A DNA stretch of 44,801 nt from Acidobacteriota bacterium. GTDB taxonomy: Bacteria; Acidobacteriota; Holophagae; Thermotomaculales; Thermotomaculaceae. A program made the position numbers and the translations under genes. The notes beneath the pieces were generated by a model that did no database searches, was not told the origin of the DNA, and was given only the letters and a program-made list of their open reading frames with translations. The stretch lies in contig JAADJC010000091.1 in NCBI GenBank assembly GCA_013151025.1, positions 73,907-118,707 on the forward strand, written 5' to 3'. Shown one piece after another: positions 2,774 to 12,691 of the stretch. How positions within the stretch are numbered: the stretch's first letter is position 1; each line of letters opens with the position of its first letter.

Positions 2774-3103
2774 TTCTGTCGCATTAAAATTAAATCAACA
2801 ATTTCTAAACGAAGACAAAGTAGCGCAGGCACAATTTTCAATACAATTGAACGTTACGCCGAACTACAAAATGGTCCAATTCTTTCGGGACCGGTTGTGG
2901 TTCAAGGCCCTGCCCAATCCTGAAATTGAGGACTTCTGTGTTTTCAAGCAGATATTACCGTAGTATATGCTTGTACTCATTCCAGAAGATCCGGGAACCG
3001 GGATCCAAGCTGGCGGCGACTCCACTTGTTTTTCTGTGGGATTTTTTTACCAGGCGCTTCGCGCTGTTTTTCACCCCTGCTGGAAACGGGCAGGGAATGG
3101 GAG
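2774..3103. other. Gene-poor gap between pseudogene and GT-C gene
   Basis: These 330 bases hold no gene I recognise. A 67-codon frame opens at the ATG at 2760, overlapping the end of the pseudogene, and runs to 2963. It contains VQFFRDRLWFKALPNPEIED and matches no family known to me. A second frame (2926-3114) is aromatic-rich and looks non-coding. The stretch may be the eroded remains of a small gene. The AGGGA at 3092-3096 is the probable ribosome-binding site of the gene starting at 3104. Confidence 0.5.
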
Positions 3104-4609
3104 ATGGAAAATAGAATGAAGGGTAAAGAGGCTGTTTCCGGGAATAAACCTCTCAAATTTCTTTCAATTCACCGGCAGGCTGTTGTTGCGCTAACCGCTG
3201 CCTTGCTCTATGCAATTCTTGTGTTTTACACCGCCCGGTTCCATGAACCGTGGTTTGACGAAGCCCAGTCATGGCTTATGGTACGGGATTTGAACCTGTG
3301 GAATCTGCTGGCTCACCACCTTCGCTACGAGGGGCATCCGTCCCTGTGGTACTTAGTGTTGTGGCTGCCGGTTCACATGGGTCTGCCCTACCAGTGGCTT
3401 CCTTTAATTCCGGCTGCCATTGCGGTTTTAACAGCTTGGCTGGTTTTCCGTTACGCGCCTTTTCCGCCGTTTATTACCTGGATGATCCCGTTTGGTTATT
3501 ATTTTGTCTATCAGTATGCCGTGATTGCCAGGAGTTATGTTTTGATTCCATTGATTCTCTCCGCTCTGGCGATTCTCTACAAAAAACGGCTTCAACGACC
3601 GGTTCTTTTTTTTGTTCTGATCACGCTACTGGCGCACGTAAGCCTTCACGGCACCGTGATAGCGGCGGGGTTGGGATTGGCGGAATTTGTCAATGCCATA
3701 TGGTGGCCGGAGGGCGCGCCTGCCCGGCACCGCCGATTTTCCCACTGGTTTTTTCTGGTTCTGGCGATAAACGCACTGCTTCTTGCCGTTCAGCTTTCTT
3801 TTCCGGACGGGTTGATTTATATGGGTGGCAACCCTGAAAAGAGTCCTTTTCAAATTGTGAACCATTCAATGACCGGAATTTGGGGCTTTTCTCTGGTTTT
3901 CTGGCTGCTGATTGTCCTATGGCTTTTCCATCGCAAGGCGGTATTGCTTTACCTTTTTCCTTTTGTCGGGCTTCTGCGGTTGTTTTCCGGAGTGTACAAG
4001 GTTTGGCACGGGGGGCTCCTATTTGTACTATTGATTTTTGTGCTCTGGATCAGTTACCCCACCGGGGAAGAGAAAATTTCCGTCACTGATAAGGTCGGGC
4101 GCCGGTACCGAACTGCTTTCCTCGTGGTATTCGGATGTACGCTGTCCATTCACATAATTTGGGGCATTCGCGCCATTCGCTATGACCTGAAAAATTCCTA
4201 TTCCGGCTCACAAAGTTGCGCGAACGCACTGAAATCAGCGGGGCTGGACAGTGCAGGACTGTACATGATCGGCTACAATACGATGGGGGTACAGCCATAT
4301 TTTGACCGAAACATTTTTATCAATAACCCCACGCCGGGAAATGGCGCGTTCTGGTTCTGGAGTACCGCAAATCCATTGGTACGGAACATGGTCACACCAG
4401 CAAGATTCAGGACAACCCTTGACAAGCTGAAAGCTGAAAAACCACGCTACGCTCTGGTTGGTGTATACGATTCGGAATCACAAGCATTTCTGAACAGAAT
4501 TCTTGCCGAAACACCCTACCGGGTCAACCGGTCTTTCAGAGGGTCCACCGGATGGAAGGGAGACCCATACGAACGGGATGATCTGTTTCTTCTGCGGAGG
4601 GTAGAATGA
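3104..4609 (+). CDS. Polytopic GT-C-type glycosyltransferase (PMT/ArnT-like)
   Basis: This is an integral membrane protein of 501 residues when read from ATG 3104. AGGGA lies seven bases upstream of that ATG. The in-frame ATG at 3026 would add 26 residues with no signal, and ATG 3116 is also possible. The first helix ([18 protein letters not shown]) is followed by an exoplasmic loop with the acidic motif [11 protein letters not shown], then [11 protein letters not shown]. That is the arrangement of the DE-containing first loop in GT-C enzymes (PMT, ArnT, GT39 and relatives), where the acidic residue is catalytic. About nine more hydrophobic segments follow, then a soluble C-terminal domain of about 120 residues. 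Inference: it transfers a sugar from a polyprenyl-phosphate donor on the outer face of the membrane. The stop overlaps the start of the next gene (ATGA, 4606-4609), so the two are probably co-translated. The donor and acceptor cannot be read from the sequence. Confidence 0.82.
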
Positions 4610-6198
4610 AAAAAAAAGCTGTGATTATCGGAGCCGGCCCTGCGGGATTGACAGCCGCATACGAACTGCTGAAAAGAACAGATATCCACCCCATCGTTAT
4701 TGAGCAGGACGGGGAAGTGGGCGGTATTTCCCGCACAGTGAACTTTAAGGGAAACCGGATCGATGTCGGCGGCCATCGTTTTTTTTCAAAATCGGATCGG
4801 ATAATGGACTGGTGGCTCAATATTCTGCCCCTGGAAGAATCCGCTTCCGGTTCTTTTGCAATTCACTATCAGAACAAACAAAAAACAATCATTGCCGAAG
4901 AAAGCGATCCCACTCCCAACTCCTACCCCTACTCCGAAGACCGGGTTATGCTGGTGAGAAAACGGAAGTCCAGGATCTATTTTCAGCGGAAATTCTTTGA
5001 TTATCCCGTCCGGTTGAATCTCCGGACTGTCCGGAACCTCGGGTTGGCCCGAATGGTAAAAATCGGGTTCAGTTATCTGAAAAGCGCATTTTTACCCATT
5101 CGGCCGGAAAGAAACCTGGAGGAATTCTTTATCAACCGTTTCGGACGGGAACTCTACGAGACTTTTTTCCATTCGTATACCGAGAAGGTATGGGGAGTAC
5201 CCTGCCGGGAAATTACTGCTGAGTGGGGTGCCCAGCGAATCAGGGGTTTGTCCATTGGAAAAGCCCTGTTGCATACTGTGACAAACCTGTTCAGGGGAAA
5301 GGGGAATATTGCCCAGAAGGGTACGGAAACATCGTTGATTGAGCAGTTTCTCTACCCCCGGCTCGGCCCCGGACAGATGTGGGAAGCGGTGGCGGACAAG
5401 GTTCGTGAAATGGGGGGCGAAATCCTCACCGGGTACCGGGCGACCCGCCTGCTGACAGAGGGAAACCGGATTCGGGCGGTGGCGGCTGTCAGCCAGTTGT
5501 CCGGGGTGGTGCGGGAATTTAACGCCGATTATGTGTTTTCCACCATGCCGGTGCAAGGCCTTATCCGGGCAATGGGGCAGGCTGTGCCGAAGTCCGTCCG
5601 CCACATCAGCGAAGGTCTTCAATACCGTGATTTTTTGACGGTGGGGCTGCTTTTGAAAAATATGCAGGTGAAGGACAAAAAAGGTGGGTTGATTTCTGAC
5701 AACTGGATTTATATTCAGGATCCGGATGTGTCACTGGGACGGGTACAGATTTTCAATAACTGGAGTCCTTTCATGGTAAGGAATCCAGAATATGTATGGG
5801 TGGGACTGGAATATTTCTGCAACGAAGGCGATAAACTGTGGGAAATGGCGGACAGTGAGCTGATTCGTCTGGGTCGGGAGGAACTGGCAAAAGTCGGCAT
5901 GGCATCAGGAGACGCCTTTGTGGACGGGGTGGTGGTTCGGATGCCGAAGGCCTACCCGGCTTATTTCGGCACTTACCCGCAGTTTGGCCAAATTCGGGAA
6001 TATCTCGACCCCTTTGAAAACCTCTTGCTTGTGGGCCGAAACGGGATGCACCGCTACAACAATCAGGACCATTCCATGCTGACTGCCATGACCGCTGTGG
6101 ATAACATTGTGGAAGGACGGAAAGACAGGGAGAACATCTGGGCGGTGAACACAGAAGAAGATTATCATGAGCGACTGGAACAGCCGAATGTTAAATGA
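4606..6198 (+). CDS. NAD(P)/FAD-dependent oxidoreductase, UDP-galactopyranose-mutase/amine-oxidase-like
   Basis: 530 residues. The FAD dinucleotide motif GAGPAG is at residues 9-14, followed by a GGISR turn and [19 protein letters not shown]. The mid-region contains [19 protein letters not shown], and the C-terminus contains [19 protein letters not shown], which closes the FAD pocket in this family. These proteins occur in glycan clusters; their reaction is not established, though a mutase or sugar-oxidation role by analogy with UDP-galactopyranose mutase is reasonable. It is the intact twin of the pseudogene at 1186-2773, and the two align almost without gaps. It begins on the stop of the GT-C gene (ATGA overlap). 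The last residues, LEQPNVK, are encoded by the palindromic repeat starting at 6171, whereas the twin ends right after YHEEK. Confidence 0.93.
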
Positions 6199-6316
6199 TG
6201 AATGTTAAATGTTAAATTGAAGAACAAGAACGGGGAATTGGCCAATTTCGCGCTGTTTCCCTGTCTTTTCCCCTTTCCCCCATTCAAAACTTAACACTCA
6301 AAACTCAGAACTCCGG
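6171..6316. repeat. Family B palindromic element, copy 1
   Basis: 146-nt unit starting GCGACTGGAACAGCCGAATG. The left arm (6187-6222) is built from GAATGTTAAAT-like words. The right arm (6281-6313; CATTCAAAACTTAACACTC) is its imperfect reverse complement. A perfect palindrome AATTGGCCAATT lies in the middle (6236-6247). The element overlaps the last codons and stop of the upstream gene. It is followed 148 nt downstream by a second copy in the same orientation. Confidence 0.8.
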
Positions 6317-6318
6317 TA

Positions 6319-6464
6319 GCGGCTGGAACAGCCGAATGCTAAATGATGAATGTTAAATATTGAATTGAAGATACAGGACAGATAGCGGCTGTTTCCCTGT
6401 CTTTTCCCTCATTCCTCATTCAAAATTCAACATTCAAAACTCAGCGGCCCGGTCGGGCCGCTGG
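6319..6464. repeat. Family B palindromic element, copy 2, ending in a GC hairpin
   Basis: Second copy, same order of parts: GCGGCTGGAACAGCCG (itself a small hairpin), left arm GAATGTTAAATATTGAATTG (from 6349), shared GCTGTTTCCCTGTCTTTTCC in the middle, and right arm CTCATTCAAAATTCAACATT (from 6416). It closes with a perfect nine-pair hairpin CAGCGGCCC-GGTC-GGGCCGCTG (6442-6463). The hairpin has no adjacent T-run, so it is not a typical intrinsic terminator. Confidence 0.8.
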
Positions 6465-6486
6465 AGGCCAGTAGTTTTTGTACAGT

Positions 6487-6690
6487 TCAGGTGAGTTGTA
6501 ACAGGTGAGCTGGCGGCTTCACCCTTTCTTTATAGTTCCAGTAGAGATCGTGTTGTTCAGGGGGGTCTTTTTCCATGTTGAAAAGTTCAGTCCGAAGGGG
6601 ATACCAGGTAAGTAGAAGCTTTCATGGCCACTGGATAATGTCGCCCTGCTGAATCAGAGCGTTACTGTTCATATAAACGAACCGGCGCTT
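6487..6690 (-). pseudogene. Decayed C-terminal fragment of a sulfatase-family enzyme
   Basis: Reading the minus strand from 6690 gives 68 codons: KRRFVYMNSNALIQQGDII, then an in-frame TGA at 6624-6622, then KLLLTWYPLRTELFNMEKDP and PEQHDLYWNYKE, ending at TGA 6489-6487. 'KL...ELFNMEKDPxEQHDL' is the usual C-terminal signature of arylsulfatase-like enzymes (KL...ELYDLExDPxExxNL). No catalytic N-terminal part or start is present upstream, so this is a relic. The fragment sits beside the family B repeats. Confidence 0.6.
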
Positions 6691-6822
6691 TCCTTGACTT
6701 CATTTCTCCTATTCTTTCCGGAATGGGTTGGAAACCTGCACAATTGATCGAAACCCTTACGAGTCACTGACCAATTGAATCATCCAATTAGCATATCAAT
6801 TCTATTTGCGTTGACACTATTT

Positions 6823-6850
6823 TGCAAAAAAAGTGATTGTGGTTTATACT
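6823..6850 (+). promoter_or_regulatory. Putative sigma-70 promoter
   Basis: TTGCAA (6823-6828) and TATACT (6845-6850) with a 16-bp spacer. The expected start of transcription, about 6857, lies only a few bases before the ATG at 6860. A TTGACA at 6811 is too far from the -10 to pair with it. Confidence 0.5.
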
Positions 6851-6859
6851 GTCATTAAT

Positions 6860-7225
6860 ATGTTAAATGAGATGGATATGAACCGAATGAACAATTGGCA
6901 GATGCACTTCCTGATTCTCTGTTTTTCGGGGCCAATGGTGCTGCTTCTGTGGCCGGTTTACGGTAGCCTGTCATCTCAACGCCAGGCGCTGGTACGGGAA
7001 GGGACCATTTACTTTGCTGTCACCGCACTTCTATTCTTTATTTTCCGGATATTTACGGAACTACCGCTGATCGGGGGCCTGTTCCTTTTCTTGTCCATTT
7101 TTTATTGGATGGCATATCTCGCTGTTTCCGTGTGGATTATTGTAAAAAAAAGAGAAGACATGCATTTTGTCCTGCCATTTATCTCCACCCACGCGGAGAG
7201 ACTGGAGAACAAAAATGTACTGTAA
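6860..7225 (+). CDS. Small membrane protein, three predicted helices
   Basis: 121 residues from ATG 6860. The GTG at 6833 is in frame but lies upstream of the likely -10 box, and ATG 6872 is an alternative; none has a Shine-Dalgarno. Three hydrophobic stretches are visible (MHFLILCFSGPMVLLLWPVY, GTIYFAVTALLFFIFRIF, LIGGLFLFLSIFYWMAYLAV), and the protein ends with charged KKREDMHFV and STHAERLENK. The layout resembles small DUF4870-like proteins, but I cannot assign a family. The 3' end overlaps the start of the zinc-ribbon gene by 11 nt, so the pair is probably co-translated. Confidence 0.65.
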   Translation: MLNEMDMNRMNNWQMHFLILCFSGPMVLLLWPVYGSLSSQRQALVREGTIYFAVTALLFFIFRIFTELPLIGGLFLFLSIFYWMAYLAVSVWIIVKKREDMHFVLPFISTHAERLENKNVL

Positions 7226-7952
7226 AAAGTGCGGCGCCCGTATACCCGATGAGCACACGCGTTTCTGCCCAAGCTGCGGAGAACCCGTTGTTCACGAAAA
7301 ACTGGGCCCTTCCAATACTGAAAAAGGCCTCTGGGTTGTAATCGGGATAATAATTCTGATCGCGGCATTTGTTCTGCTCCGGAATAAAACGAGTTCCAAT
7401 GCGGCAAATACGATTTCTACGCCTCAACTCAATGTAAATTCTAACACTGTTTCAGACACAAAAAGGAATTCTCCCAGGCTTCGCCGTGAAGTTTCTGCAC
7501 CCCCATCCCCGTCGGCATCTTCCATCACACCGGTCCAGACGCCGTCAAGCCTCCTTTACGCTTCTCTGGCAGAAGCACTGAAGGGAAGCCGTTATTCCCT
7601 TGAGGTCAAGTATGTCAATCAACTGAAGGCTTTTCGCGTAAGTGCGTCCGTTCTTTACGACAACCAGCCAAGGGAAACATATCTGAACATTTTTTCCCGT
7701 TTTTTCGCGATATGTTACGGTGGCAGAAGCCGGCCTTTGATTTCGGCGACCATTTCTCTGAAACAGGGTGACGGCAAACCCATGATGGCTATGGGAATCG
7801 GCCGCAAAACAGCCGGTTCAGTTCCGGCTGTTACCTGGCGGCAGTTTTCCGATATGGGGACCAGCCTTGTGAACTGGGTTCGCAATCATGAGGTAAAAAA
7901 TCCGCCTTCTCCTGAAATGGCCTGCTATTTCAAGCAGAATGCAGAATTCTGA
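7215..7952 (+). CDS. Zinc-ribbon, single-TM protein of unknown function
   Basis: 245 residues from ATG 7215. The N-terminus is a zinc ribbon (CKKCG at 3-7 and CPSCGEP about 15 residues later), followed by one transmembrane helix (GLWVVIGIIILIAAFVLL). A Ser/Pro/Thr-rich linker leads to a C-terminal domain of about 130 residues (LYASLAEALKGSRYSLEVKY onward) that I do not recognise. The topology places the zinc ribbon in the cytoplasm and the C-terminal domain outside the membrane. A longer frame from 7167 exists, but the zinc ribbon normally begins at the N-terminus, so I prefer 7215. It is coupled to the small membrane protein just upstream. Confidence 0.75.
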   Translation: MYCKKCGARIPDEHTRFCPSCGEPVVHEKLGPSNTEKGLWVVIGIIILIAAFVLLRNKTSSNAANTISTPQLNVNSNTVSDTKRNSPRLRREVSAPPSPSASSITPVQTPSSLLYASLAEALKGSRYSLEVKYVNQLKAFRVSASVLYDNQPRETYLNIFSRFFAICYGGRSRPLISATISLKQGDGKPMMAMGIGRKTAGSVPAVTWRQFSDMGTSLVNWVRNHEVKNPPSPEMACYFKQNAEF

Positions 7953-7971
7953 GCCGGATTGGCTACTTTTC

Positions 7972-8000
7972 TTTACCCTTCAACGTCCATGCTTTATAAT
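7972..8000 (+). promoter_or_regulatory. Promoter for the TonB-dependent receptor gene
   Basis: TTTACC (7972-7977), 17-bp spacer, then a consensus TATAAT (7995-8000). The implied leader of about 75 nt is too short for a cobalamin riboswitch and I see no other riboswitch. Confidence 0.6.
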
Positions 8001-8080
8001 CGCGTCTGTTGTGTGGAAGTCGACTCAGATTTGTTCGGCTTGCCGGGCTTTATGCCGATTTTGAAACGGGGAGGGGCTCA

Positions 8081-9694
8081 ATGGGCCATGGAGTATTACT
8101 TGCCCTGCTGTTGCTTACCGCAAATCCGAAAGTGAATGAGCAGGTTGTGGTAACGGCAAAAACAGGAAGCGCGGAGAAAACAGAAACCATCGACCAGTCG
8201 GTAATGGATAAATTCACCCTGCTCAATACAGCAGATCTGTTTGAATTTTTCCCCTCATTGTCCCTGGCTACCCGTGGGCCGGGCGGTGTACAGGCGGACA
8301 TTTCATTTCGTGGCGCACGGGGAAACCAGGTGGGTGTTCTTCTCAACGGGATTCCCCTGAACAACGCCCAGACCTATCACCACAATTTTGATATTCCGGT
8401 GGCGCCGGAAGATCTGACGGCGTTCTCGGTTCGGCCCGGGGCCTCCGGTGCAGAGTCCCCCTACGGGTTCAGCGGCCAGGTGAACCTGAAGACCGGCAGC
8501 AATCAAAAAGAACGGTACAACTTTGCCTACGGAAGTGACAGATATTATCACATCTATGCGGCTCAATATGGGCTTTCCTATCTGTTGGAAGGCAGCGACG
8601 GATATCGGGACAATACGGATTATCACACCACAAACGTAACCTGGCAGGGGGAACGCAATGGTTTTCGGGTTTTCACCGCTTTTAATCGGAAAAGTTTCGG
8701 CGCCCAGGACTTTTATGCGCCCTATCCATCCTATGAAACAACCGAAACCTATCTCGCGTCTGCCAGCTGGAAGAACCTGACTGTGTATGGAATCCGTCAC
8801 GACGACACATTTCTGCTGGATCGGGACAACCCGGATTTTTACATGAATGAAACCGAGACTGTCCGCAGTGGATTCCATCAGGAATTTCAATTGCCACACA
8901 ATATATTTCTTTCCTATGATTTTGCAGCCAATAGTGTTTCCAGCCTGGTATTGGGACAACACAACGACCATGAGCTGACGATAAAAGGGGCAATGGTTTT
9001 GCGGGCCGGTGGCTGGCGCATTCGTCCGGGAATTACCCTTGTAGATTCTTCAAGAGATAGTGGGGAATGGATGCCCTTTGTGGGTATTTACAGGTGGATC
9101 AACAGCTACCGCGTATCTATGGAAGCCTCCCGTACCGTTCGTCTGCCGGATTATACGGAACTCTACTACATTTCCCCGGTAAATCAGGGAAATTCCGAAC
9201 TTCAGTCGGAATCCGCCTGGAATGTGGACCTCTCGGTGGGCAGGGCATGGTGGAAAGGAACGCTTTTCTACCGGAATGAATCCCGTCTCATTGACTGGGT
9301 GCGAAGGGATGAGATGTGGCACGCGGAAAACATCGGCCATTCCCGTGTCTGGGGCCTGGAAGCCTCTGCGGTAATCGGGAAATGGTCTGCGGGATATCAG
9401 ATGATCAGCCGGCAATCATCCACAGACCTGGAAACCAAGTACAGCTGGCATCTTCCAAAGAACCGCTGGGTGCTTCGCTATCACGGGAAAGACTTGTCTA
9501 TTATGTACCAGTTCATGGACACACCGGGATTGTCCAATGCTTCTGTACTGGATATGACATTTTTCGGCACCGGATTCTATCTGAAAGTAAAAAATGCAAT
9601 GGATGACAACTATGAAACCATACCCGGAATTCCAATGCCGGGTCGCACTTACCTGTTCGGATATCGGGTCAACGGCCCTTTGTTAACCTACTGA
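8081..9694 (+). CDS. TonB-dependent outer-membrane receptor (BtuB-like size)
   Basis: 537 residues from ATG 8081, which has a strong GGGGAGGGG five bases upstream. Starting at 8009 would put the hydrophobic segment too far inside. There is a short signal sequence (MGHGVLLALLLLTA), then a TonB-box-like EQVVVTA. The plug domain shows MDKFTLLNTADLFEFFPSLS, SFRGARGNQVGVLLNGIPLN and SPYGFSGQVNLKTG. About 350 residues of alternating aromatic/polar beta-strand sequence form the barrel. The protein imports a scarce ligand (for example a cobamide, iron chelate or sugar) with energy from TonB/ExbBD, which are not in this window. It is at the short end for the family, close to BtuB. The C-terminus (FGYRVNGPLLTY) carries a few extra residues after the usual terminal strand. 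No ligand-specific gene is adjacent. Confidence 0.9.
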   Translation: MGHGVLLALLLLTANPKVNEQVVVTAKTGSAEKTETIDQSVMDKFTLLNTADLFEFFPSLSLATRGPGGVQADISFRGARGNQVGVLLNGIPLNNAQTYHHNFDIPVAPEDLTAFSVRPGASGAESPYGFSGQVNLKTGSNQKERYNFAYGSDRYYHIYAAQYGLSYLLEGSDGYRDNTDYHTTNVTWQGERNGFRVFTAFNRKSFGAQDFYAPYPSYETTETYLASASWKNLTVYGIRHDDTFLLDRDNPDFYMNETETVRSGFHQEFQLPHNIFLSYDFAANSVSSLVLGQHNDHELTIKGAMVLRAGGWRIRPGITLVDSSRDSGEWMPFVGIYRWINSYRVSMEASRTVRLPDYTELYYISPVNQGNSELQSESAWNVDLSVGRAWWKGTLFYRNESRLIDWVRRDEMWHAENIGHSRVWGLEASAVIGKWSAGYQMISRQSSTDLETKYSWHLPKNRWVLRYHGKDLSIMYQFMDTPGLSNASVLDMTFFGTGFYLKVKNAMDDNYETIPGIPMPGRTYLFGYRVNGPLLTY

Positions 9695-9730
9695 ATAAGA
9701 TTGAGTGAAGCAATCCGCGAGGGAGGCTAC

Positions 9731-10519
9731 GTGAATGGAATGAAAAGTGAGTGTCAACGCCTGGTGGAGATAATGGACCGGCTTCGGGGAGAGGACGGTT
9801 GCCCCTGGGATCGGGAACAGACGTTTGAAAGCCTGAAAACTTTTTTAATAGAAGAAAGCTACGAAGTAATAGAAGCTGTGGACAAGGGGGATTTTGACGC
9901 CCTGTGTGGAGAGCTGGGAGATGTGCAATTGCAGATCGTGTTCATGGCCCGAATGGCAAAAGAAAAAGGCCTTTTTACCATGGTGGACGTGCTCCGTCGC
10001 ATAAACGAAAAGATGATTCGCCGCCATCCCCACGTGTTCGGAGATGAAACCGTTCATTCCACCGATGAGGTGCTGGAAAACTGGGAAAAAATCAAGGCAA
10101 AGGAAAGGGAAGACGAAAACGGCAGCAACAGTGAGTCCAAAGGCTTCCTCTCCGGAATTCCCAAAACCCTTCCCGCCCTCCAGGTCGCGTATCAGATTGG
10201 CGTAAAAACATCCCGGATTGGTTTTGACTGGGACACGCCGGCTCAGGTAGAAGAAAAAATCCATGAAGAATGGGCGGAAATGAAGGAAGCGGAAGCGGCA
10301 AATGATTGGGAAGGGCTTCGGGAAGAGTTGGGAGACCTGCTTTTTACCATTGCCAATTTTGCAAGAAAGCATGGAATCGACCCGGAAGACGCCCTTCGCC
10401 TCAGTAACCGCAAGTTTATGGGAAGATTTAACAAAATGGAAAAAGTCGCCGATGTGACCGCATCCACACCGGAAAAACTGGAAGAACTCTGGCAGGCGGC
10501 AAAGGCCGGGGAAAAGTAA
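9731..10519 (+). CDS. mazG: Nucleoside triphosphate pyrophosphohydrolase MazG
   Basis: 262 residues. GTG 9731 is preceded by GGGAGG with a four-base gap; ATG 9740 is the alternative start. It has two tandem MazG domains. The first has GCPWDREQTFESLKTFLIEE and EEsYEvieA followed by GELGDVQLQIVFMA, which supplies the metal-binding ExxE and ExxD residues. The second repeats this as IHEEWAEMKEAE and LREELGDLLFTIANFARKHG. MazG hydrolyses NTPs and dNTPs to the monophosphate and PPi, clearing non-canonical nucleotides and affecting (p)ppGpp responses. The stop is two bases before mnmA, so the two genes form one unit. Confidence 0.95.
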   Translation: MNGMKSECQRLVEIMDRLRGEDGCPWDREQTFESLKTFLIEESYEVIEAVDKGDFDALCGELGDVQLQIVFMARMAKEKGLFTMVDVLRRINEKMIRRHPHVFGDETVHSTDEVLENWEKIKAKEREDENGSNSESKGFLSGIPKTLPALQVAYQIGVKTSRIGFDWDTPAQVEEKIHEEWAEMKEAEAANDWEGLREELGDLLFTIANFARKHGIDPEDALRLSNRKFMGRFNKMEKVADVTASTPEKLEELWQAAKAGEK

Positions 10520-10521
10520 AT

Positions 10522-11565
10522 ATGCGCGTTTTACTGGCCATGAGCGGAGGCGTGGATTCCTGTGTGTCCGCCCACCTGCTGAAAGAAGCCGGCCATGATG
10601 TCACCGGCATCACGCTGGTGTTTCACCCCGACGTGGAAACGGCCCGGTGCAACCTGAAGATCTGCTGTTCCAGTCAGGATACAAAAGATGCAGAAGAGGT
10701 GTGCCGAAAGCTGGACATTCCCCACCATACTCTGGATCTTTCGAAAGAATTTAACCGGGCCATTGTGCAGCCGTTTATTGATGCATATCGTCTGGGGGAA
10801 ACTCCAAATCCCTGCGGGAGTTGCAACCGCTTTTTGAAAATAGGGCGCCTGGCGGAAGTGTTGGAAGATTATGGCTGTGAAAGGCTGGCAACCGGACATT
10901 ACTGCCGGGTACGGGACGGGAAACTCTATCGCGGCAGAGATATTACCAAAGATCAGTCTTATTTTCTGTCCATGGTCCGGGCAAAACATATTGAAAAGAT
11001 GATATTTCCACTGGGAGAAATGACCAAGTCGGAAGTGCGTAAAATTGCGGACATGCTGAATCTTGCCGTGGCGGACAAACGGGAGAGTCAGGAACTCTGT
11101 TTTACCGGAGGAAAGTCTCCCAATTCTTTTGTTTCCGGGAAAATCTCAGAAAAACCCGGATTCATTAAACATGTGTCCGGCCACATCTTCAAGCTTCATC
11201 ATGGAATGTCCGCTTTCACCATCGGTCAGCGGAAGGGGCTGGGCATTGCCTGGAACGAACCCCTGTACGTGCTGCAATTGGATGCCCGAAATCGAACAGT
11301 GGTTGTGGGAGAACGGCATTTCCTGGAAAAAAGAACCGTCCTGGTTCGCAGTTTCAATATGCTTTCTGAAATTTCCGGAGAAATATCCGGCTGTATCCGA
11401 TACAATCAGGAACCGAAGCCGGTTGAAACTGTTTCACAGGTTGACGACACCTCGTTATTGGTTCGATTTCAAGGCCCGATTGCCGCAGTGGCACCGGGTC
11501 AGATCTTTGCTGCTTACTCTGATGATTGCGTCATCGGTGGCGGCATCATAATGGAGGCAATGTGA
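10522..11565 (+). CDS. mnmA: tRNA-specific 2-thiouridylase MnmA
   Basis: 347 residues, the usual size. The enzyme puts sulfur on C2 of the wobble uridine in tRNA-Lys, -Glu and -Gln. The PP-loop AMSGGVDSC is at residues 6-14. The catalytic cysteine is C98 in ETPNPCGSCN and the second, persulfide-forming cysteine is C193 in ESQELCF. GHYCRV and KDQSYFL are further family motifs, and the C-terminal beta-barrel (IGQRKGLGI onward) is complete. It starts two bases after mazG. Its stop overlaps the GTG start of the next gene (ATGTGA at 11560-11565), and that gene's SD lies inside the mnmA 3' end. Confidence 0.97.
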   Translation: MRVLLAMSGGVDSCVSAHLLKEAGHDVTGITLVFHPDVETARCNLKICCSSQDTKDAEEVCRKLDIPHHTLDLSKEFNRAIVQPFIDAYRLGETPNPCGSCNRFLKIGRLAEVLEDYGCERLATGHYCRVRDGKLYRGRDITKDQSYFLSMVRAKHIEKMIFPLGEMTKSEVRKIADMLNLAVADKRESQELCFTGGKSPNSFVSGKISEKPGFIKHVSGHIFKLHHGMSAFTIGQRKGLGIAWNEPLYVLQLDARNRTVVVGERHFLEKRTVLVRSFNMLSEISGEISGCIRYNQEPKPVETVSQVDDTSLLVRFQGPIAAVAPGQIFAAYSDDCVIGGGIIMEAM

Positions 11566-12545
11566 AGGATTTTCTCGCTGTAGAATCCTTTGACGCAAAC
11601 GGTAAAACGCTCACCATTATGCTCTTCATGCGAATGAAGCTGCCCACGACTTCCTTTACCCTTCCGGTTACCGTACCGGAGAGTATGCTGAAGACGCTGA
11701 TAAGTCGTCTCCCGAAAGAGTGTGAGCTGTCCCAGCGGATGCAGGCCAACCTCGTTTCCATTTTCCATGAAGCCCAGAACAGCGTTGCAACCGGCAACCC
11801 TCCTGAAGAAGAGGTTCAACTGCTCTTAACCGCCCGGTTTGAAGATGGGGAAACCAGCACTCTGTTCCAGAAAACCGACCGGAAGCTCACGCGGTTGAAA
11901 CAGATGCTGAACCGGTTGCTTGAAGATGGGAATCCCCGCTTTGTTTATATGGTGTTTGGCATGCTTCTCGGGAACTCACCCGATCCGGATACCATCGAAC
12001 AATATGTGGCTTTCTGCGTAAAGCGGAATGAAACAGACCGGCTTTTGAACTGGCTGAATTTTCCTTCAACCCATGAGGGATGCTCTGTGGAGACCATTAC
12101 AAACCTGGCGGATATTGCGATTTATCACAAACAGTACTTTGATGGGGAGGCCCTCTGTGACCTGGCGTTACACGAAAACTACGGCAATGTGGCCGCATTA
12201 ATCGGAAAAGCTCAGTGCCGCTATCAGATTGGAAAAGATGATTATCTGGTCTTTCTCCAGAAAGCCTTTCATTTCAACAAGCGAATTACGGTGGAAACAG
12301 TTACCCGGCGATTCCAGTTCCGAAGGGACGTCCGGGCGGACGTATTTGACGTACTCAGCCTCAAGGACGCAATGGCAGAGGTTCGAATCCCCCCGGAGGC
12401 CTTGAAGCGAAAAGAACTTCTATCCCTTCCCTACCGCACCGAAAGCAGCCAGGGCAGTATCTACTTTGTCCGGAAAGAACTCGCCGCATGGAAAGAAACC
12501 ATGGACACACTGAGCATCGTTTCCGGTCGTTTCGGAAGAGGGTGA
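11562..12545 (+). CDS. Unknown protein translationally coupled to mnmA, TPR-like region
   Basis: 327 residues from GTG 11562, with GGAGG four bases upstream inside mnmA. I do not recognise the family. The N-terminal 100 residues are mixed alpha/beta (ESFDANGKTLTIMLFMRM onward). The middle (IEQYVAFCVKRNETDRLLNW to YFDGEALCDLALHENYGNVA and KAQCRYQIGKDDY) has the helix-turn-helix spacing of tetratricopeptide repeats. There is no signal peptide or membrane segment, so it is cytoplasmic. Context suggests a role near tRNA thiolation or a protein-interaction scaffold, but this is only positional. The gene ends just before a family A palindrome. Confidence 0.8.
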   Translation: MKDFLAVESFDANGKTLTIMLFMRMKLPTTSFTLPVTVPESMLKTLISRLPKECELSQRMQANLVSIFHEAQNSVATGNPPEEEVQLLLTARFEDGETSTLFQKTDRKLTRLKQMLNRLLEDGNPRFVYMVFGMLLGNSPDPDTIEQYVAFCVKRNETDRLLNWLNFPSTHEGCSVETITNLADIAIYHKQYFDGEALCDLALHENYGNVAALIGKAQCRYQIGKDDYLVFLQKAFHFNKRITVETVTRRFQFRRDVRADVFDVLSLKDAMAEVRIPPEALKRKELLSLPYRTESSQGSIYFVRKELAAWKETMDTLSIVSGRFGRG

Positions 12546-12548
12546 AGA

Positions 12549-12691
12549 GAAGTAAAGACAAGTAGGGACAAGGTTGAGCTTAAGTCCGGATAAGATTAAG
12601 AAGGAGCAGGGATTGCCCCACTCCTGGCAATTGCTGATTCTCAGTCTTCACTTAAACTAAATCTTGTCTTCTACTTAAACTTGTCTTTCTT
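12549..12691. repeat. Family A long imperfect palindrome, copy 1
   Basis: About 143 nt between convergent genes. Three blocks on the left match inverted blocks on the right in nested order: AAAGACAAGT (12554-12563) with ACTTGTCTTT (12679-12688); GACAAG (12567-12572) with CTTGTC (12663-12668); TTAAGT (12580-12585) with ACTTAA (12650-12655). The unit resembles the one at 17955-18090 in both arms. Its right edge contains the stop codon (12690-12692) of the minus-strand gene. Confidence 0.82.

Follow-up and report, generated by a model that had tools for sequence, protein, structure and literature searches.

On the minus strand of the window (the whole 44,801-nucleotide stretch of an Acidobacteriota contig analysed here), positions 6463-6693 can be assigned, with a probability of about 0.95 on the basis of sequence comparison, to the pseudogene remnant of a deleted gene of the sulfatase superfamily (table 1). 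The gene is found whole in a genome of the same genus (G002), where an open frame encodes the 667-residue protein P0001. The remnant would be an ordinary case of gene loss with little significance outside the locus, but annotation of the region as featureless is unwarranted.

The ancestor would have carried a membrane-anchored sulfatase-superfamily gene, divergently oriented, between a PRK07208-type gene and the gene of a small membrane protein. Most of this gene, comprising its start, its hydrophobic segment and all of the PF00884 domain, would have been deleted on the window's lineage. The surviving 3′ end additionally bears an in-frame stop and a short gap that shifts the frame; no order of these lesions is implied.

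Table 1. Features of the window around the putative remnant and in the adjacent gene cluster
Feature	Positions	Strand	Evidence or remark
Sulfatase-family membrane protein gene, putative 3′-end remnant	6463-6693	minus	blastn, protein match and tblastn vs G002
In-frame TGA stop within the remnant	6622-6624	minus	translation, sequence
32-base gap vs G002, frame shifted beyond	6517-6535	minus	alignments; exact place alignment-dependent
Deletion junction zone, ~70 bases	6694-6762	none	comparison with G002 and G003
Region upstream of the small hydrophobic protein gene, partly conserved with G002 and G003	6763-6832	plus	
Flanking gene, small hydrophobic protein	6833-7225	plus	G002 orthologue, 82%
Flanking gene, FAD-dependent oxidoreductase-like (PF01593; NCBIfam NF005546, PRK07208 group)	4606-6198	plus	G002 orthologue, 81%
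A+T-rich repeat element, two diverged tandem copies	6170-6453	none	overlaps end of PRK07208-type gene
Second PRK07208-type gene	1186-2773	plus	split between two frames near 1740-1815
GtrA-family gene tail, 25-codon remnant	3004-3078	plus	76% identical to G002 frame L023:10066-10530 (PF04138)

Homology and position of the remnant

The minus-strand translation contains YMNSNALIQQGDIIQWP, a stop codon and KLLLTWYPLRTELFNMEKDPPEQHDLYWNYKER in succession. Its 86-residue read-through matched the open 670-codon frame of G002 (E = 3.8e-22, 63% identity), and the DNA matched the same genome with a blastn E of 3.6e-42 (73% identity over 263 columns, gaps counted). Searching with P0001, tblastn recovered the remnant in two frames (E 2.8e-20 and 1.3e-7), and the counterpart of the remnant is formed by residues 576-663 of this protein. 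The strength of the protein and DNA matches to an open frame indicates that the resemblance is not due to chance, and the relic of a sulfatase C-terminus noticed on this strand by the initial annotation is thereby borne out. The extent proposed there (6487-6690) marks the right site, although it is slightly narrower than the DNA alignment; a protein profile alignment places the upper limit at ~6705. The frame that had been written as KDP-PEQHDL is present as well, but without the gap.

In library searches with the remnant alone, no Pfam family was found up to an E of 10, whereas two arylsulfatase models of NCBIfam (E 0.03-0.13) and one sulfatase of the PDB (E 0.022) were matched weakly. These matches are too weak to decide, so the identity of the remnant was settled by the comparison within the genus: the expected sulfatase similarity is weak in the libraries and strong against the frame of P0001. 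As compared with the sulfatase family (PF00884 and PF16347), the tail motif ELFNMEKDPPEQHDL is kept and resembles the same stretch in all 10 readable homologues (16 aligned). Just the last part of the PF16347 (SGSH_C) region survives, and the PF00884 domain is missing, the remnant starting at about residue 572-576 of P0001, past the domain end at 560.

The read-through, the DNA and P0001 were searched in 61 genomes, that is, the window's own (G000) and 60 relatives. At an E of up to 1, the read-through found matches in 10 of them: the window's own, G002 and eight with weak matches (E 0.02-0.83). At the same threshold, a 401-base DNA query matched 41 of the 61, mostly over short stretches; G002 gave 9.0e-42 and the next best genome after the window's own and G002 gave 3.3e-5.

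Both flanks are colinear with G002. In detail, positions 6811-12560 align with 5853-109 of G002 (82%) and 4611-6170 with 10056-8497 (77%), and the match of the remnant (8272-8010) lies between them. The remnant is thus located at the site of the whole G002 gene and in the same orientation, with the same neighbours on both sides. This is the complete gene that the initial annotation had proposed to look for in related genomes.

Lesions and the deletion junction

The 5′ part of the gene is missing, and the similarity begins at residue 576 of P0001 in the DNA alignment and tblastn, or at residue 572 in the profile alignment. A segment of ~2.1 kb in G002, which includes the first 575 codons, corresponds in the window to the ~70 unmatched bases of the junction zone; their matches to G002 and G003, another genome of the genus, do not exceed the best one obtained from 200 shuffles. 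Since the PF00884 match stops at residue 560 of P0001, the domain and its presumed nucleophile are gone from the window, and no working enzyme of the sulfatase family could be encoded by what is left. The rest of the gene had been described as lost through a past deletion, and this is supported by the corresponding site of G002, where an open 667-residue copy is bordered on either side by DNA that matches the window.

The single TGA of the initial annotation was confirmed, and a second one occurs in the read-through frame beyond the frame shift. The 32-base gap, the two sides of which fall in different frames when P0001 is used in tblastn, is a lesion that had not been noticed before. The absent 5′ part, the in-frame TGA and this gap are disabling lesions of the kind seen in the ordinary decay of bacterial genes left behind by deletions, in which a 3′ end carrying a stop and a frameshift is left where a relative has the gene complete; the window remnant shows no difference of note from such cases.

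Along 53 in-frame codons, the remnant and G002 differ at 7, 6 and 15 first, second and third positions, respectively, and relatively fewer first- and second-position changes were counted in four intact neighbour genes. The codon pattern alone is no proof of lost constraint, because G002 and G003, in which frames of the same gene family are both open, differ at 59, 44 and 98 positions over 186 codons and are thus no more constrained (103 at first and second positions vs 98 at third).

The assembly of the window is a draft of 142 contigs and 92% complete, and it could be supposed that the organism has an intact gene whose sequence was dropped or wrongly joined here. Such an error is improbable, as the in-frame stop and the 32-base gap are separate from the 2 kb gap, the flanks remain colinear with G002 over kilobases, and a search for the missing 5′ part found nothing on the other contigs at an E of up to 1e-5. 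Full-length P0001, searched in the same assembly with this threshold, found nothing besides the remnant. A search of the assembly for the PF00884 domain itself found it in two other genes, a frame of 704 residues on contig C97 and one of 393 residues on C117.

The gene in related genomes

G003 carries the beginning of this gene on the minus strand, with 57% identity to residues 10-184 of P0001, up to the point where the contig ends. With respect to the small membrane gene, which G003 shares, it is oriented as in the window. Between the two genes, G003 has a further frame of 575 residues, apparently a membrane protein (L057:692-2419, plus strand), which is not at the corresponding place in G002 or the window.

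The third relative of the genus, G001, has no match to P0001 at an E of 1e-5, and other genes adjoin its small membrane gene, so that the distribution of the sulfatase-family gene within the genus may be patchy. In the sister genus, all five genomes (G004-G008) lack a match at this threshold. The state of G001 would also agree with a fragment that arrived by recombination in a lineage which never had the whole gene. This is even less probable than an assembly error, given that the site and orientation of the complete gene in G002 are exactly those of the remnant and that G003 has the gene start in the same orientation. The change seems to have been a loss on the window's side and not a gain on that of G002. 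The large deletion was presumably a single event, and the gene presumably once worked in this lineage.

Nothing in the sequence of the remnant is suggestive of function, and a protein is unlikely to be made from it. Between the two TGA codons there is a 44-codon run (KLLLTW...LLQLT), but it is hardly credible that a short functional protein, or a frame reading UGA as an amino acid, is still produced, since the frame departs from the family before this run ends, the PF00884 domain is wholly absent, and TGA at 6196-6198 serves as the stop next door, where it ends the PRK07208-type gene at 530 codons exactly as in G002. A very short decayed stretch could be read from the raw sequence and then be confirmed by a relative carrying the whole gene.

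The lost gene and its cluster

P0001 belongs to the PF00884 family (2.2e-24, residues 252-560, 86.7 bits against a cut-off of 25) and also matches PF16347 (1.1e-10, residues 510-644). Several hydrophobic stretches are found within its first 200 residues, so that from its sequence it looks like a membrane-anchored protein of the sulfatase superfamily. The motif C/S-x-P/A-x-R at the nucleophile position, which we take to be the mark of a formylglycine-dependent arylsulfatase, is not found at the aligned position of P0001, where SNYAD starts from residue 295 instead; the sole match to the motif is SDPWR at 320. In place of serine 295, all 10 readable homologues have a threonine. In this alignment, loci were available at 16 of the 20 homologue places, and six rows were left out because their frame was incomplete or wrongly chosen. 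The nucleophile position of P0001 rests on these homologues, as a PDB search with residues 245-460 gave no sulfatase and one unrelated match with an E of 2.

The superfamily named by the initial annotation is therefore correct, while the term arylsulfatase is too specific and such an activity is not implied. P0001 need not be a sulfatase by activity and might be an ester hydrolase or a membrane transferase. Lipoteichoic acid synthase and the phosphoethanolamine transferases have a hydrophobic N-terminus followed by a sulfatase-fold domain, and P0001 is similar to them in this respect, a hydrophobic N-terminal part setting it apart from the sulfatase family. Its matches to the models NF028537 (5.4e-6, 25.2 of 500 bits) and NF053595 of LtaS (0.033, 12.7 of 970) are weak and far under the curated cut-offs. 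In G002 the gene adjoins the PRK07208-type oxidoreductase-like frame, which in turn adjoins a GtrA-family frame (PF04138, 7.5e-24), neighbours that suggest a role of the lost gene in cell-surface glycan work.

Besides the sulfatase-family remnant, decay affects other sites in the gene cluster, namely the remaining tail of a GtrA-family gene and a paralogue of the PRK07208-type gene that is split between frames. As these two lie within about 5.5 kb, the remnant could belong to a remodelling, still under way, of a surface-glycan gene cluster in the genus, in which the decoration of the envelope may be switching or being lost; this broader reading is tentative and rather doubtful.

The GtrA tail overlaps the start of the frame at 3026-4609, and an intact GtrA-family match (G000:C124:72336-72686, E 1.5e-23) is located ~1.2 kb before the window start. 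The pieces of the split PRK07208-type gene are 58-69% identical to the intact one. Neither Pfam nor NCBIfam gave a family for the small hydrophobic protein up to an E of 0.1; it was matched in all nine genomes of the family that were searched, and the four genomes of the genus each have a weak second match.

The repeats next to the remnant, reported as palindromic, turned out to be a diverged pair in direct orientation (54 nt at 93% and 66 nt at 82%, with spacings of 148 and 136). Of the two stretches that were folded, the second one, which also takes in a G+C-rich hairpin at its end, is better than shuffles (z -3.26), whereas the other is not (z -0.30). There is no evidence for the repeats as the cause of the deletion, the junction being on the opposite side of the remnant. 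In its own genome the element has at least 12 further, partial matches at an E of up to 0.001, a lower bound from the 40 of 79 candidates that were scored, and 10 of these matches are 32-60 bases long.
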